Source: Acidobacteriota bacterium (GTDB lineage: Bacteria; Acidobacteriota; Vicinamibacteria; Vicinamibacterales; UBA8438). From it: 35,937 nt of DNA. This document shows positions 1,783 through 15,209 of this stretch, one piece after another (position 1 is the stretch's first letter; every line of letters begins with the position of its first letter). The notes below the pieces were generated by a model that saw only the letters and a program-made list of their open reading frames with translations, had not been told where the DNA came from and made no database searches. The stretch covers positions 6,375-42,311 of the forward strand of contig JAGWAI010000019.1 in the NCBI GenBank assembly GCA_021296485.1, in the 5' to 3' direction. A program made the position numbers and the translations under genes.

Positions 1783-2763
1783 ATGCAGGAACCGCGCGGC
1801 TCGGCCGCAACGGTCGACCCCGACCCCACGTTAGAGATGGCCCGCGAGGTCGCCGAGGGACTCGCGCGCCAGCCGAAGCAGATCCCCGCGAAATACCTGT
1901 ACGACCCGCTCGGGTCGCAACTCTTCGAGGCGATCTGCAAGCTGCCCTGGTACAACATCACCCGTGCGGAGCGGAATCTGCTGGCCGCCCACGCGCCCGC
2001 CATCCTGCCGGCGGCCGGCGGCTGCGACACCGTGGTCGAGCTGGGCGGCGGGAGCGGCGACAAGCTGTCGGTGCTGTTGTCGGCGGCGGACGGCCGCGCG
2101 CTCGACGTGCATCTAGTCGACATCTCCGCGGCGGCGCTGGCGCAGTCGGAGCGGACGCTGGCCACTCACGGGTCCGTCGCCCTGCACAGCCATCTGGCCG
2201 ACTACGAGGCGGGACTGCGCGGCGCGCTGCGCCTGCGCCGGCCGGACGGCCGCGCGCTCGTGCTGTTTCTCGGCTCCAACATCGGCAACCTGTCTCCAGG
2301 CGAGGCGGACGGCTTCCTGCTGGAGTTGCGGGGCGCCTGTCGGCCGGGGGACCGGCTGCTGCTCGGCGCGGACCTGGTCAAGCCGGAGTCGGAGTTGCTG
2401 CTGGCGTACGACGATCCGCTCGGCCTGACGGCGGTGTTCAACAAGAACGTGCTGGCGCGGTTGAACCGCGAGCTCGACGCTGACTTCGACTTGTACGAAT
2501 ACGACCACCGCGTGGTCTGGAACGCCGACGCGTCGCGTATCGAGGTGTACCTGGAGAGCCGCAGCGACCAGCTCGTGTGCGTGCGGGGCGCTGGATGCTG
2601 CATCCGCATCGACGAGTACGAGCGCATCTGGACCGAGAGCTCCTACAAGTACGAGCCGGCGGGCATTGTCGAGATGGGTGAGCGGGCCGGGTTTGCAACC
2701 CGCGAGCAGTGGGTCGAGCCCGAGGCCCGATTCGCCCTGACGCTGTTCGAGAGCGAACGATGA
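1783..2763 (+). CDS. egtD: L-histidine N-alpha-methyltransferase EgtD
   Basis: EgtD trimethylates the alpha-amino group of histidine with S-adenosylmethionine to give hercynine, the substrate of EgtB. The 326-aa product shows the family hallmarks: YDPLGSQLFEAICKLPWYN near residue 40, the SAM-binding ELGGGSGDK motif near residue 87, FLGSNIGNLSPGEA near residue 165, and a C-terminal half ending in EARFALTLFESER. The ATG at 1783 places the protein at normal length and just after egtB. Its TGA overlaps the next gene's ATG (ATGA at 2760-2763), so translation is probably coupled. egtB and egtD form a minimal ergothioneine operon; the final C-S lyase (EgtE) is not in the window. Confidence 0.93.
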   Translation: MQEPRGSAATVDPDPTLEMAREVAEGLARQPKQIPAKYLYDPLGSQLFEAICKLPWYNITRAERNLLAAHAPAILPAAGGCDTVVELGGGSGDKLSVLLSAADGRALDVHLVDISAAALAQSERTLATHGSVALHSHLADYEAGLRGALRLRRPDGRALVLFLGSNIGNLSPGEADGFLLELRGACRPGDRLLLGADLVKPESELLLAYDDPLGLTAVFNKNVLARLNRELDADFDLYEYDHRVVWNADASRIEVYLESRSDQLVCVRGAGCCIRIDEYERIWTESSYKYEPAGIVEMGERAGFATREQWVEPEARFALTLFESER

Positions 2764-3839
2764 ATGACAGACGCACCCCGTTCACCGGCGGCGGCCTGCG
2801 GTTTCTGGTGGGCGCCGCCTGCCTGGTCGTAATCGTCGCCGGGCTGCGGGCGGCCGCACCCCTGGTCCTGCCGTTTCTGATCGCCGTATTTCTGGCGGTA
2901 GTCAGCGTGCCGCTGATCGGCCAGTTGCAGCGCTGGCGAGTGCCGCGGCCGCTGGCGGTGCTCGGCGCGGTGCTGCTGGCGGTAGGCGCAATCGGCGTGC
3001 TGGCGCTCGTCGTGGGGCGCTCGGTCAACGACTTCGGCGCCGCCGCGCCCCGCTATCAGGAGCGGCTGCAGGCGGTGCTGGATTCAGGACTGGCGCTGGG
3101 CGACGAGCTGGGGCTGCCGATTGAAGACTGGAGCTCGCTGGAGCTGCTGCCGTTCGGCAGCATGTTCGACCTGCTGGGCGGGGCGCTGGGCACGGTGGCG
3201 TCGTTCGCGTCCAACGCGTTTCTGGTGTTGCTGACCGTGACGTTCATCCTGATCGAGGCGGCCGGCTTCAGCGGCAAGCTGCGGGAGGCGTTCGGCGAGC
3301 ATGTGAAATTCGGGCAGTTGGAGCAGATGATGCGCCAGGTGCAGCGCTACCTGGCGATCAAGTTGGCCATCAGCGCGGCGACGGGCGTGCTGCTGGGCCT
3401 GTGGGTGGCGGCGTTCGGCCTCGACTTCGCGCTGCTGTGGGGGCTGGTCGCGTTCATCCTGAACTTCATCCCGACGCTCGGATCCGTCATCGCGGCGGTC
3501 CCGGCCGTGCTGCTGGCGATCGTGCAGTTCGACCTGGCGCGGGCGGGCCTGATCGCGGCCGGCTATGTCGGCGTCAACGTCATCTTCGGCAACGTCGTCG
3601 AACCGCTGCTCATGGGCCGGCGTTTGGGCCTGTCGGCGCTGGTGGTGTTCGTGTCGCTGGTGTTCTGGGGCTGGGTGTGGGGGCCGATCGGGATGCTGTT
3701 CTCCGTGCCGCTCACGATGTCCATCAAGATCGCGCTGGAGAACACCAGCGAATTCCGCTGGGTCGCGGTCATGCTGGACGCCAACCCGCGCTCGCTGCGC
3801 ACCGCCGCTGCCCGCCGCGACAACCCGCGCCGCGGCTAG
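2760..3839 (+). CDS. AI-2E family transporter (PerM/YdiK-like)
   Basis: This is a 359-aa inner-membrane protein of the AI-2E exporter family (PF01594). Hydrophobic segments lie at about 15-40, 58-82, 145-170, and in a C-terminal group of several helices between about 205 and 325, with the family's NFIPTLGSVIAAVP stretch followed by VVEPLLMGRRLGLSALVVFVS. Members export various small molecules or ions, and the substrate cannot be read from sequence. It overlaps egtD by 4 bases, so it is likely co-translated with the ergothioneine genes. The TAG stop (3837-3839) is the TA flank plus the first base of the foldback element at 3837-4018, so the present C-terminus was set by that insertion. Family length is nevertheless normal. 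Confidence 0.88.
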   Translation: MNDRRTPFTGGGLRFLVGAACLVVIVAGLRAAAPLVLPFLIAVFLAVVSVPLIGQLQRWRVPRPLAVLGAVLLAVGAIGVLALVVGRSVNDFGAAAPRYQERLQAVLDSGLALGDELGLPIEDWSSLELLPFGSMFDLLGGALGTVASFASNAFLVLLTVTFILIEAAGFSGKLREAFGEHVKFGQLEQMMRQVQRYLAIKLAISAATGVLLGLWVAAFGLDFALLWGLVAFILNFIPTLGSVIAAVPAVLLAIVQFDLARAGLIAAGYVGVNVIFGNVVEPLLMGRRLGLSALVVFVSLVFWGWVWGPIGMLFSVPLTMSIKIALENTSEFRWVAVMLDANPRSLRTAAARRDNPRRG

Positions 3840-4018
3840 CCCGCATTTCTCACCAGCGTTCGTCGCGAGGGTGTCGAGGCGCCGCGGTGGTGGGTCGCAC
3901 GGACTGAACGACGCTGCAGGCGTAGTCGCAACTACGTCGAAGCGGCGTGAGGGAGTACGGCCCGCCACCGCGAGCGGATCGGCGGCCGTAGCAGAAGGCT
4001 GGTGAGAAATGCGGGCTA
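3837..4018. repeat. Foldback/MITE-like inverted-repeat element, long copy
   Basis: A 182-bp element has perfect 19-bp terminal inverted repeats, GCCCGCATTTCTCACCAGC at 3839-3857 and its reverse complement at 3998-4016, flanked by TA on both sides (3837-3838 and 4017-4018). Inside are nested inverted repeats: CGCGGTGG at 3883-3890 with CCACCGCG at 3965-3972, and CGTAGT at 3921-3926 with ACTACG at 3931-3936. Almost the whole element could fold into one long hairpin. It encodes no protein. A second, shorter copy lies at 14120-14198. Size, TA flanks and lack of coding capacity resemble MITEs of the IS630/Tc1-mariner group. It lies exactly between two converging genes and may also end transcription from both sides. 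Confidence 0.85.
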
Positions 4019-4561
4019 GCTGCGCTGCCGGAAGCTCTTCACCGCCTCGACGTGCTCGACGAAGGCGGCGCGCGCGGCGACGAATTCCTGGTGGGTCAGA
4101 CCGAGCTCCCTGGAGATCCGCCGCGCCTGGCCTTCCTCCGCGACGGTGATCGACTCGTCCGCCGCCGAGACGGCAAAGACGCATTCGAGCAACTCCATCC
4201 GTTGCACGCTGTCCGACAGCTCCCGGAACTGGCGTGTGACCAGGAAGTCCTCGGTGCCTCCGAACAGACGCACCTGGTTCTTGGCGATCTCGACGACCAG
4301 CACGGCCTGCGCCTCCGGCAGGTGGCCCAGCACCCGCACGATCTCCTCCATCTTGCGCGTTTCCGCTTCGCTGATGTGCGAGTCGGCGTGGGCGGCGCGG
4401 CCGAGAATATAGGCGAAGCCGGCCAGGTAGCGCGCGCGCTGCTCCGGTATCGCCTCGAGCTCGCCGACGATGCGGCGGACCGCGTCGGCCTCCGGTACGC
4501 CGCCGCGGCCTGCCGGCGCGGCGGCGGGCCGCGACAGGTTCAGAAACTCCAGAATCGACAT
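4016..4561 (-). CDS. TerB-domain protein
   Basis: This 181-aa protein is predicted cytoplasmic and mostly helical. The region from about 35 to 175 resembles the tellurite-resistance TerB fold, with AAHADSHISEAETRKMEEIV and VFAVSAADESITVAEEGQARRI as two acidic, metal-site-like helical repeats. TerB domains are linked to membrane-associated stress responses, but the exact role is unknown. An AAGGAAA sequence lies about a dozen bases before the ATG. It is the last gene of a - strand run, 16 bases after the permease/substrate-binding gene, so it may be co-transcribed with the transporter. Its TAG stop (4018-4016) is formed by the end of the foldback element. Confidence 0.75.
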   Translation of the reverse strand: MSILEFLNLSRPAAAPAGRGGVPEADAVRRIVGELEAIPEQRARYLAGFAYILGRAAHADSHISEAETRKMEEIVRVLGHLPEAQAVLVVEIAKNQVRLFGGTEDFLVTRQFRELSDSVQRMELLECVFAVSAADESITVAEEGQARRISRELGLTHQEFVAARAAFVEHVEAVKSFRQRS

Positions 4562-8526: not shown

Positions 8527-10299
8527 TCAGGGAAGTGCAAACACGAAGATGTTGTTGCCGATGCTCGGCCGCAGCTCGGGCGTGAGCGCCAGGAACGACA
8601 TCGGGTTGCCGGCGCCGGTGCTGGCCACTATGTACTGCTTGCCGTCGACCGCATAGGAGATCGGGAAGCCGGACAGCGAGGAACCGACGTTGACCTCCCA
8701 CAGCACGGCGCCGGTCCTGTCGTCGAGCGCCTTGAACCGCCCGTTCGCGTCTCCGACGAACACGAGCCCGCCGCCGCTGGCAAACAGCGAGGCGGTGGCG
8801 GCGCGCTGCTCGTACTTCCAGGCGATCGCGCCGGTTTCCGCCGAGATGGCGTGCACCGCGCCGACCATTTCGGTGCCGGGGGCAATCTCCTGGCGTACCG
8901 CTAGCGAGTACAACTCCAGGGGCAGCGTGTCGCTGCTCTCCACCACCATCATGCGCGCGCAGGTGTTGCGCAGCGGCATGTACATCATGTTGGTCTGCGG
9001 ACTGTAGGCGCCGGCCTCCCAGTCCTTGCCGCCGTTGTAGGTCGGGCAGGTCATCACCTGTTGGCCGCGGCTGGTGAATACCAGCTCGGAGTTTTCCGAC
9101 ACCGCGCCGGTGGCGCCGTCGATGTTGGTGATCACGTTCTGCGTGATCGTCGGCGTGGCCCACAGGAACTCCCCGGTGGCGCGGTCCAGCGTGTAGACCA
9201 CGCCGGTCTTGCCCGGGATGCCGGTTACCACCCGGCGCACCTCGCCCGGCCGGAGATTCGGGTTGATCCAGCTCACCGCCGATGGGTCCGGCGCCACGGC
9301 GGTGTCGACCAGCAGCCGCTCGAACGGGTGGTCGAGGTCCCAGTGGTCGTTCAGGTGCTGGTAGTGCCAGGCGATGTCGCCCGTGTCGGCGTCGAGCGCG
9401 AGAGTGGAGTTGTGGTACAGGTATTTGTGTTCGGTGCCGCCCAGCAGGAACTTCGGCGCGGGCGAGGTAACCGACGTTCCCAGGTAGATCAGGTTCAGCT
9501 CCGCGTCGTAGCTCGGCACCATCCAGGAGCCGACGTGCGACCGCTCGCCGAACGGCACGCCGCCCCATGTGTCGTCACCCGCCTCGCCGGGCGCCGGGAT
9601 CAACCGCGTACGCCACACCTCGGCGCCGGTCCGGGCGTCGTGCGCGACGATGATGCACGCTTCGGGCCCGCCGGCAGGCATGCACCCGCGGCCCGAGACG
9701 GCCTTGCCGTCGGCAATGATCGGACCCGCCGACTGGTGCGCGGGATTCACACGGTAGTCCAGAATCTGCGTTTCCCACGCCAGTTGCCCGGTGGCGGCGT
9801 CGAGGGCGTACGCATAGTCGTCGGCGCTTGTGGAAATAATCAGGTTCCCGTAGACGGCGATGTTCCGTTTCGCCTCTGACAGGTACGGGGAGATGAACTC
9901 GTCGATATCGTCGGGGCGCTGCCGGCGGTATTCCCACAGCAGATCGCCCGTGGCGGCGTCGATCGCCTGGATGACGTCGCGCGGGTTGGGCATGTACATC
10001 ACGCCTTCGTACACCAGCGGCGTGCCCTGCTGGCTGCCGGCGCTCAGCGCCCGCGACCAGACCAGCCGCAACTGGCCGACGTTGTCGCGGTTGACCTGGT
10101 CCAGCGGGCTGAAGCCCCAGCCGTCGAGCGTCCGCCGCCAGCTCAGCCAGTCCCCGGGGGCGGGGTCCTGCACCATCGCGTCGGTGACGGGCGTGAAGTC
10201 GCGCGCCGCCTGGGCGGAGGCCGCGCCGGCCCCTGCGGTCAGCAGCAGGGCGGCGCAGAGCATGGCGGAACGCAGCGGCGCAACACGGATTGCGGACAT
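8527..10299 (-). CDS. PQQ-dependent dehydrogenase (eight-bladed propeller quinoprotein)
   Basis: This periplasmic quinoprotein would oxidise an alcohol, aldose or similar substrate with PQQ. The 590-aa product has a signal peptide (about 1-31, ending ASAQA), then repeated tryptophan-docking blades such as IDAATGDLLWEYRR, LDAATGQLAWE, LDADTGDIAWHYQ and ISAETGAIAWKYEQ. It has no adjacent Cys-Cys pair and no cytochrome c motif, so it is not a classical methanol dehydrogenase or quinohaemoprotein. A separate electron acceptor would be needed. I chose ATG 10299, which has GGAGGTG about 10 bases upstream; the open frame continues much further up only as a shadow of preA. It lies 65 bases after preA and 15 bases before the TPR gene. 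No PQQ biosynthesis gene is in the window. Confidence 0.87.
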   Translation of the reverse strand: MSAIRVAPLRSAMLCAALLLTAGAGAASAQAARDFTPVTDAMVQDPAPGDWLSWRRTLDGWGFSPLDQVNRDNVGQLRLVWSRALSAGSQQGTPLVYEGVMYMPNPRDVIQAIDAATGDLLWEYRRQRPDDIDEFISPYLSEAKRNIAVYGNLIISTSADDYAYALDAATGQLAWETQILDYRVNPAHQSAGPIIADGKAVSGRGCMPAGGPEACIIVAHDARTGAEVWRTRLIPAPGEAGDDTWGGVPFGERSHVGSWMVPSYDAELNLIYLGTSVTSPAPKFLLGGTEHKYLYHNSTLALDADTGDIAWHYQHLNDHWDLDHPFERLLVDTAVAPDPSAVSWINPNLRPGEVRRVVTGIPGKTGVVYTLDRATGEFLWATPTITQNVITNIDGATGAVSENSELVFTSRGQQVMTCPTYNGGKDWEAGAYSPQTNMMYMPLRNTCARMMVVESSDTLPLELYSLAVRQEIAPGTEMVGAVHAISAETGAIAWKYEQRAATASLFASGGGLVFVGDANGRFKALDDRTGAVLWEVNVGSSLSGFPISYAVDGKQYIVASTGAGNPMSFLALTPELRPSIGNNIFVFALP

Positions 10300-14068: not shown

Positions 14069-14119
14069 GCACTCATCCGCGAAGGCTGAATGGACACAAT
14101 TTAGCGGAAGTCTAACGGT

Positions 14120-14198
14120 TAGCCCGCATTTCTCACCAGCGTTCGTCGCGAGGGCGTCGAGGCGGCCGCAGCAGAAGGCTGGTGAGAAATGCGGGTTA
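14120..14198. repeat. Foldback/MITE-like inverted-repeat element, short copy
   Basis: A 79-bp copy of the element at 3837-4018. The left terminal repeat at 14122-14140 is identical to the long copy; the right one at 14178-14196 differs by one base (GCGGGT instead of GCGGGC). TA flanks it on both sides (14120-14121 and 14197-14198). It equals the long copy with about 103 internal bases missing; the junction falls in GAGGCGGCCG, where the long copy has similar GGCG tracts on both sides of the lost part. It lies in the gap between divergent genes, 51 bases from the dihydropyrimidinase start and 39 bases from the start at 14238, so it sits in or next to both promoters. Confidence 0.85.
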
Positions 14199-14237
14199 GG
14201 ATAAGGGAACGCCCGCACTTTCAAAGAGAGGTCGCGA

Positions 14238-15209
14238 ATGCTGCGTCAATGCATGGCCGTCGTGACGATCACCGCCGGCGTGTGGCTGGCTCCGCTTTCC
14301 GCTGCCGGACAGGCTCCACCCCGGACGGCGTGGGGGGACCCCGACCTCCAGGGCGTCTGGACGGGCTCCACGCTGACGCCGCTGGCGAGGCCGGCCGATC
14401 TGGCCGGGCAGGAGTTCCTGACCGAGGAGCAGGCCGTGGCGCTGGAGCAGCGCGCCGATCGCAACCGGTTCGTCGAGCGCGTGCCGCGCGAGGGCGATCC
14501 GGGCACCTACAACCAGATCTGGTTCGATCCCGGCACCCGCCTCGTCCCGGACCGGCGCACGGCGCTGATCGTCGATCCGCCGGACGGGCGCATTCCCTAT
14601 ACCACCGCGATGGCGGAGCGTGAACGGCTGCAGCGCGATTACCGCGTGAACGGCGAGCGCGACTCGTGGGTGGACGTCGACACGGGGGAACGGTGCATGA
14701 CCGACGGCGTCCCGATGTTCTGGCTGGGCTACAACCCGAACCACCAGATCCTGCAGACGCCGGAGCACGTGGTCATTCTCCACGAGATGTTCCGCGACCG
14801 TCGGATCATCCCGCTCGATGGGCGATCGCACGGACTCGAGCAGTGGAACGGCGATGTTCGGGGCCGCTGGGAAGGCGACACGCTGGTCGTGGAGTCGACG
14901 CGTTTCGTCGACGGGAGCGGCGAGCGCTGGGCGGCCACGTGGCGCATGCCCACGCCCACGATGCAACTCGTCGAACGCTTCACGCGCCTCGACGAGAACA
15001 CCCTCGAATACGAATTCACCCTGACCGACCCGGCCAAGTTCACGCGGCCCTGGAGCGTGCGCATGCCGCTGACGACAAACCAGGCCGCGCGCGGCGTGAC
15101 GGAAGGTCCGCTATACGAATATGCCTGCCACGAAGGGAACTACAGCATCGTCAACGTGCTCAGCGGCGCACGCGCCGAGGAGCAGGCCGCGATGGTCGGT
15201 TCGAGATAG
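14238..15209 (+). CDS. Secreted protein of uncharacterised DPDLQGVW family (copy 1)
   Basis: This is a 323-aa exported protein with a signal peptide (about 1-25, ending SAAGQA). I do not know its function. Conserved blocks shared with the products at 15971 and 24610 are: WGDPDLQGVW after the signal, LIVDPPDGR, a single Cys in a GERCM-type motif, HVVILHEM, IIPLDGR, RGRWEGDTLVVESTRF, VERFTR, and the C-terminal YEYACHEGNYSIVNVLSGAR. The repeated His, Asp/Glu and Cys positions could form a catalytic or metal site. GAGAGG lies about 7 bases before the ATG. It is a single gene, divergent from dihydropyrimidinase and convergent with the SRPBCC gene. Confidence 0.8.
   Translation: MLRQCMAVVTITAGVWLAPLSAAGQAPPRTAWGDPDLQGVWTGSTLTPLARPADLAGQEFLTEEQAVALEQRADRNRFVERVPREGDPGTYNQIWFDPGTRLVPDRRTALIVDPPDGRIPYTTAMAERERLQRDYRVNGERDSWVDVDTGERCMTDGVPMFWLGYNPNHQILQTPEHVVILHEMFRDRRIIPLDGRSHGLEQWNGDVRGRWEGDTLVVESTRFVDGSGERWAATWRMPTPTMQLVERFTRLDENTLEYEFTLTDPAKFTRPWSVRMPLTTNQAARGVTEGPLYEYACHEGNYSIVNVLSGARAEEQAAMVGSR

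Follow-up and report, generated by a model that had tools for sequence, protein, structure and literature searches.

A foldback element of Acidobacteriota with the ends of IS1380-family transposons and a fold conserved across the phylum

MITEs are usually regarded as degenerate and lineage-bound leftovers of one insertion sequence. Palindromes of this kind can keep their arms complementary by template switching or by arm-to-arm conversion. The prokaryotic MITEs, as exemplified by QMITE2, NEMIS and ERIC, are short sequences without genes that have inverted ends, a target duplication, many copies and a stable predicted stem-loop, and the 2024 review of these elements names neither IS1380 nor Acidobacteria (PMC10969869). 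REP sequences carry a GTAG or CGTC tag, have a length of 20-40 bp and, with the REPINs and the RAYT or TIRYT transposases, form a second system of palindromic sequences with many copies, imperfect hairpins and an asymmetry of the single strands (PMC3733652). The IS1380-family insertion sequences (PF13701, NF033539) are about 1.6-1.8 kb long and encode a transposase. In the current analysis we describe a hairpin element from a stretch of 35,937 nucleotides of an Acidobacteriota genome, the whole of which is referred to as the window.

The element body is a non-autonomous hairpin of 176 bp at 3840-4015, with its left-to-right (L->R) direction on the + strand as given by the CGTCGCGAG motif at the left. 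Positions 3836-4019 read CTAG-CCCGCATTTCTCACCAGC...GCTGGTGAGAAATGCGGG-CTAG. The original prediction had described perfect 19-bp terminal inverted repeats with TA at each end. The inverted ends are indeed perfect, with CCCGCATTTCTCACCAGC at 3840-3857 (+) and its reverse complement at 3998-4015 (-), and their length is 18 bp within the element or 22 bp with the palindromic CTAG flanks counted. The flank itself is not TA and is a 4-bp direct repeat, CTAG at 3836-3839 and at 4016-4019. A repeat search of the window extends the inverted arms to 38 nt at 87% identity, and the 22-bp end has 4 matches in the window as against 0 in the dinucleotide-shuffled window. The interior includes a left outer conserved loop module TTC-GTC-GC-GA-GG (3859-3870, +), an apical stem-loop with an 8-bp stem and a 4-nt loop in the GCGTAGTCGCAACTACGTC region (3919-3938, +) and a right outer conserved loop module CC-GTA-GC-A-GAA (3986-3996, +), which reads GCAG.AG in most relatives. 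The element folds end to end as one hairpin of -137.3 kcal/mol, compared with -83.6 +/- 4.5 for shuffled sequences (z -12.1). No coding capacity was found in it, as had been proposed, and the 146-aa ORF (3565-4005) that overlaps it is without any Pfam match.

The second copy that had been noticed 10 kb away is located at 14123-14195 (+) and is a derivative of 73 bp, flanked by TTAG duplications at 14119-14122 and 14196-14199. Both ends and the outer loop module are kept and the inner hairpin is absent; this copy is either a genuine short derivative or a collapsed assembly. Elsewhere in the window, the regions 8531-10250 and 14319-14590 match many places in two related genomes (G001 and G002) at 65-79% identity and are therefore considered as members of large paralogous gene families.

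The element is situated between two convergent genes. The TAG stop codon of an AI-2E transporter gene (2709-3839, +) is formed by 3837-3839 inside the left CTAG duplication, and that of a TerB-like gene (4016-4561, -) by the complement of 4016-4018 inside the right one. The orthologous site of a congeneric sister species, the Vicinamibacteria MAG JAJEEU (G001), is a clean empty site with about 87% identity on both sides, reading GCCCGCCGCTAGCGCCGCTGCCG with one CTAG, and this single CTAG holds the TAG stop of both genes; the duplication has thus left each of the convergent genes with its own stop codon. The C terminus of the transporter differs over a short stretch between the two genomes and the alignment beside the site is not gap-free. 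The same site of G002 is also empty and is without the CTAG.

The genome that carries the window is an 88% complete draft of 2.38 Mb in 105 contigs, which has been searched and sampled by region. It contains 93 ends at up to 2 mismatches, as against 0 for a reversed-pattern control, and 65 covariance-model matches, numbers that are lower bounds because the assemblies are mostly draft MAGs in which hairpins cause gaps and contig ends and in which short forms are possibly misassembled. Thirty-two copies have been assembled with both ends, and 12 of these 32 have identical 4-bp flanks, which match as words (TTAG/TTAG, CTAG/CTAG, CTAC/CTAC); TTAA also occurs among the duplications. The many copies, the target duplications and the empty single-CTAG site in the sister species establish that this is a non-autonomous mobile element, and the proposal of a mobile foldback family of this lineage is borne out. 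The family is not limited to the two copies of the window, nor is the site always occupied among relatives.

The copies also vary in their length and state of assembly. N runs are seen within the hairpins of several own-genome copies (for example L037, L050, L061 and L063) and several contigs end inside a copy, which indicates that short-read assembly is disrupted by the elements. This genome also has size classes of 142-161 bp; as N runs or gaps lie exactly at the apex of many of them, they have been considered to be 176-bp copies distorted by assembly. Forms with a greater length, 225-251 nt, and with extra sequence in the apical half have been identified in the own genome (L043, L079, L080) and in G460 (L349-L351); those of the own genome contain GGGGGTTTGGGGCGCAGCCCC and are possibly passenger insertions. 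On two contigs of G001 (C95 and C10; L111:2789, 2912 and L117:1495, 1617) head-to-tail left ends (CCCGCAGTTCTCACC...) are spaced by about 122 bp, and no right ends face them. Shortened derivatives, of 61-90 nt and flanked by target duplications, also exist, two of which in G347 share one deletion at different sites. The inner fold is therefore not strictly required, and the inner hairpin may count only quantitatively or in another step.

The ends of the element have been found to be those of IS1380-family transposons. The sequence TAGCCCGCATTTCTCACC is present, at up to 1 mismatch, in 50 of the 396 genomes of the phylum, and in G166 the same end bounds a CTAG-flanked element of 1.74 kb (CTAG-CCCGG..GCGGG-CTAG) that encodes an IS1380-family transposase (PF13701, E-value 2.8e-153; NF033539, 379 bits with a cut-off of 180). 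The element ends come in five sequence variants, and the same variants bound IS1380 transposons in relatives. The variant CCCGGATTATGCATA is shared by an IS (ctag..ctag, 1643 bp) and a hairpin (L175) of G297; hairpin and IS1380 transposon are likewise paired for CCCGCATTTCTCACAC in G361 and G340 and for TTTCTCAACGGGGTG in G192; CCCGSATTATTCATGA belongs to the IS copies of G032 and G298 as well as to hairpins of G333, G347, G213 and G179; and CCCGSATTTCTCACC is present in G166, G402 and the family of the window. Element and transposon have the local end variant in common, within a genome or a family, in at least three genomes (G297, G361/G340, G192). Duplications of 4 bp of the YTAR type are common to the hairpins and the IS copies (G166, G192, G391, G032, G297, G298). 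PF13701 is enriched in genomes that carry the element, 19/65 as against 40/331 (OR 3.0, p 0.001, without kinship correction), and 46 of the 65 carriers, which are draft assemblies, have no IS1380 transposase.

The transposase with matching ends that had been sought is thus encoded in relatives, and no PF13701 (IS1380) transposase was identified in the own genome (88% complete draft) or in G001; the mobiliser in the own genome is accordingly one that we infer. The match in ends and in duplication length makes mobilisation in trans by IS1380 transposases highly probable. No hairpin was seen inside the loci of IS1380 transposons in the IS copies that were examined directly, and the hairpin is therefore not needed for moving the ends. 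Derivation of the element as an internal deletion of IS1380 was considered and rejected, because the IS loci seen contain no hairpin. At one locus of G361 (C86, L187:1359-1364) an IS1380 transposon begins right next to an outward-facing hairpin-type end, from which it is separated by CTAA alone, and it looks as if the transposon had made use of the target duplication that belongs to the hairpin.

A covariance model built from 11 copies, with at most 6 matches scored per genome in the phylum scan, has matches in 65 of the 396 genomes of the phylum, representing 47 genera, and most of these span the full model. The element of the window (G000:C53:10214-10389) scores 161 bits over model positions 1-177. 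Matches are also present in 4 of 299 Pseudomonadota, one being the seed genome G460. This genome (JALUUZ), labelled as a Gammaproteobacteria MAG and thus outside the phylum of the window, has 72 model matches in 3.0 Mb and is the densest carrier seen; its copies reflect either transfer or a wrong label. Plasmid and phage collections have no match to the element, and the viral contigs none to its core pattern, with two contigs that share the end only. Rfam 15 has no match at gathering or relaxed thresholds, the best sub-threshold family being a plant foldback miRNA at 35 bits versus 197.

Copies from unrelated genera differ in sequence and are alike in fold. The length is 174-176 nt in 67 of the 78 aligned copies (44 genomes). 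In an alignment of 34 sequences 93.8% of the stem cells pair, a percentage that is favoured by deriving the structure from the same sequences, which is a minor concern given the slid registers and the effect size: the covariation score is 0.599, as against 0.209 +/- 0.009 after shuffling and no more than 0.11 in slid registers, and RNAalifold agrees. Changes on both sides are seen in 49 of the 57 pairs, and the terminal repeats covary too. The unpaired interior loops recur unchanged in different genera and phyla.

The two strands of the element are not equivalent. The base pairs were picked on the Watson-Crick fraction alone, which is strand-neutral, and the L->R strand was set by the loop motifs. 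On this strand the mismatches comprise 313 G.T and 125 A.C cells, or 39 versus 19 pairs (p 0.012), of which the pair-wise test is the conservative one, as loops and families are common by descent and the genomes are not independent observations. Among the conserved columns that stay unpaired on it, 11 are A, 5 are G, 1 is T and none is C. In 42 of 44 genomes the L->R strand has a better fold than its complement, by a mean of 13 kcal/mol, and this persists with DNA parameters or without G.U pairs. The idea of an identical hairpin from either strand is hence only partly right, given the asymmetry of the interior loops and the clearly better fold of one strand. Among copies within a genome the unique changes are 43 G.T, 32 A.C and 43 other. 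The asymmetry is almost gone in this nearly symmetric variation, from which single copies appear to decay near-neutrally once inserted.

These results are probably best explained, as a whole, by a structured foldback MITE that is moved by an IS1380 transposase and whose fold is needed for copying. An IS1380-family transposase would act in trans on the 15-18-bp ends, and insertion would duplicate a 4-bp target, mostly CTAG, TTAG or TTAA. The L->R strand of the imperfect hairpin of about 176 nt would have to fold properly for a lineage to keep copying, and individual copies, once inserted, would decay in a nearly neutral manner. The part of this proposal to which we give even chances is that the folded strand is under selection during propagation.

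The element could instead be an ordinary IS1380-type MITE, in which the arms stay complementary only through repair of the palindrome by template switching or arm-to-arm conversion, and in which the loop motifs are functionless remnants of an ancestor. That short derivatives still move and that copies of one genome drift near-neutrally would fit such an origin, as would the pairing-preserving double changes within a genome (28 cells in G347), which conversion or subfamily mixing predicts. Conversion should, however, remove mismatches from the interior, yet genera and phyla have the same unpaired loops; it is symmetric for the strands, whereas a long-term G.T excess lies on one strand, the one that folds better in 42/44 genomes; and the length has stayed constant, at 174-176 nt in 67/78 copies. 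We regard this explanation as rather unlikely. A much smaller chance is given to an RNA element useful to the host, which would be transcribed from a neighbouring gene, end or stabilise its message and be kept by hosts, as in the role of terminator or RNA stabiliser that had been suggested for the element. The hairpin is very stable, its conserved A/G-rich loops lie on one strand, and at 16 of 58 own-genome sites an element end falls exactly at a stop codon. Ends at stop codons amount to 17/90 (19%) as against 12/104 (11.5%) at control YTAR sites, an excess that is not convincing, and YTAR sites are often stop codons. The copies have no orientation bias with respect to the ends of neighbouring genes (16 vs 22; 15 vs 14), variation among copies of one genome is near-neutral and no T-run follows the stem in the window sequence. 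Given this drift and the lack of orientation bias, the fold seems to be maintained for the making of new copies and not for host genes.

Two further mechanisms of movement have been considered. Y1 transposases are not known to leave a target duplication. A REP/REPIN-like hairpin moved as ssDNA by such an enzyme (RAYT or TIRYT), with the likeness of its ends to IS1380 being a coincidence, is very improbable in view of the 4-bp duplications, which by themselves weaken it, and the variant-matched IS1380 ends. Strand-specific folding would suit a Y1 enzyme, TIR-flanked Y1 genes have been reported from Acidobacteria (PMC3733652) and in G460 one Y1 gene is found at a distance of about 600 bp from a copy; against this, no Y1 gene is found in the own genome, G001, G174, G192 or G531, and only 2 of 30 Y1 loci have a model match, one of them weak. 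The original assignment to the IS630/mariner type, with TA as target, has practically no likelihood left. The TA does lie inside the 4-bp YTAR target, yet the left and right flanks of a copy are identical over the full 4 bp (CTAG, TTAG, TTAA or CTAC), so that the 4-bp duplication refutes it, and the transposons with these ends in relatives encode IS1380 transposases.

The element spans a phylum and reaches another, holds its length within a few bases, retains a specific fold through compensatory change and uses ends that belong to a common IS family. Should propagation depend on the fold, the element would be a testable example of transposition by a DDE enzyme that requires a structure; otherwise it is a strong natural example of a palindrome maintained without function. 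The element also accounts for the recurrent assembly gaps in these genomes, and it serves as a warning for RNA-motif searches that strong covariation can stem from a mobile element. More tentatively, it could represent an ancient element class in which the substrate of a DDE (IS1380-type) transposase is a structured, protein-free nucleic acid with a fixed length of about 176 nt, one folded strand of which, as ssDNA or self-made RNA with conserved purine-rich interior loops, would be a working part of the propagation cycle; the comparison of this strand with attC or REP hairpins is in role and not in origin.

No description of IS1380 MITEs, acidobacterial MITEs or structured-RNA MITEs was found in the searched literature, which is weak evidence as most subscription literature lies outside the search. 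Rfam 15, PMC10969869, PMC3733652 and the texts searched contain no description of the strand asymmetry or of so deep a conservation of length, loops and fold. With its 176 bp, 18-bp ends, many copies, target duplications and empty site, and no transposase gene, the element has the defining features of a MITE and works as one. It resembles QMITE2, NEMIS and ERIC in all the features by which those were introduced above (PMC10969869) and differs from them in the conservation of its length, its interior loops and its fold throughout a phylum, with compensatory changes. To the IS1380-family insertion sequences of the same phylum, and partly of the same genomes, it is alike in the five end variants and the 4-bp duplication, and it differs from them in having a hairpin, which they lack, and no gene. 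With REP/REPIN sequences (PMC3733652) it has the palindromic form, the copy number, the imperfect hairpins and the single-strand asymmetry in common; unlike REPs it is 176 bp long, with 4-bp duplications and no linked Y1 gene. The integron attC sites are similar in one respect at most, an imperfect palindrome with one active folded strand; the element is not a member of that group, and its target duplications, unlike attC, point to a different chemistry.
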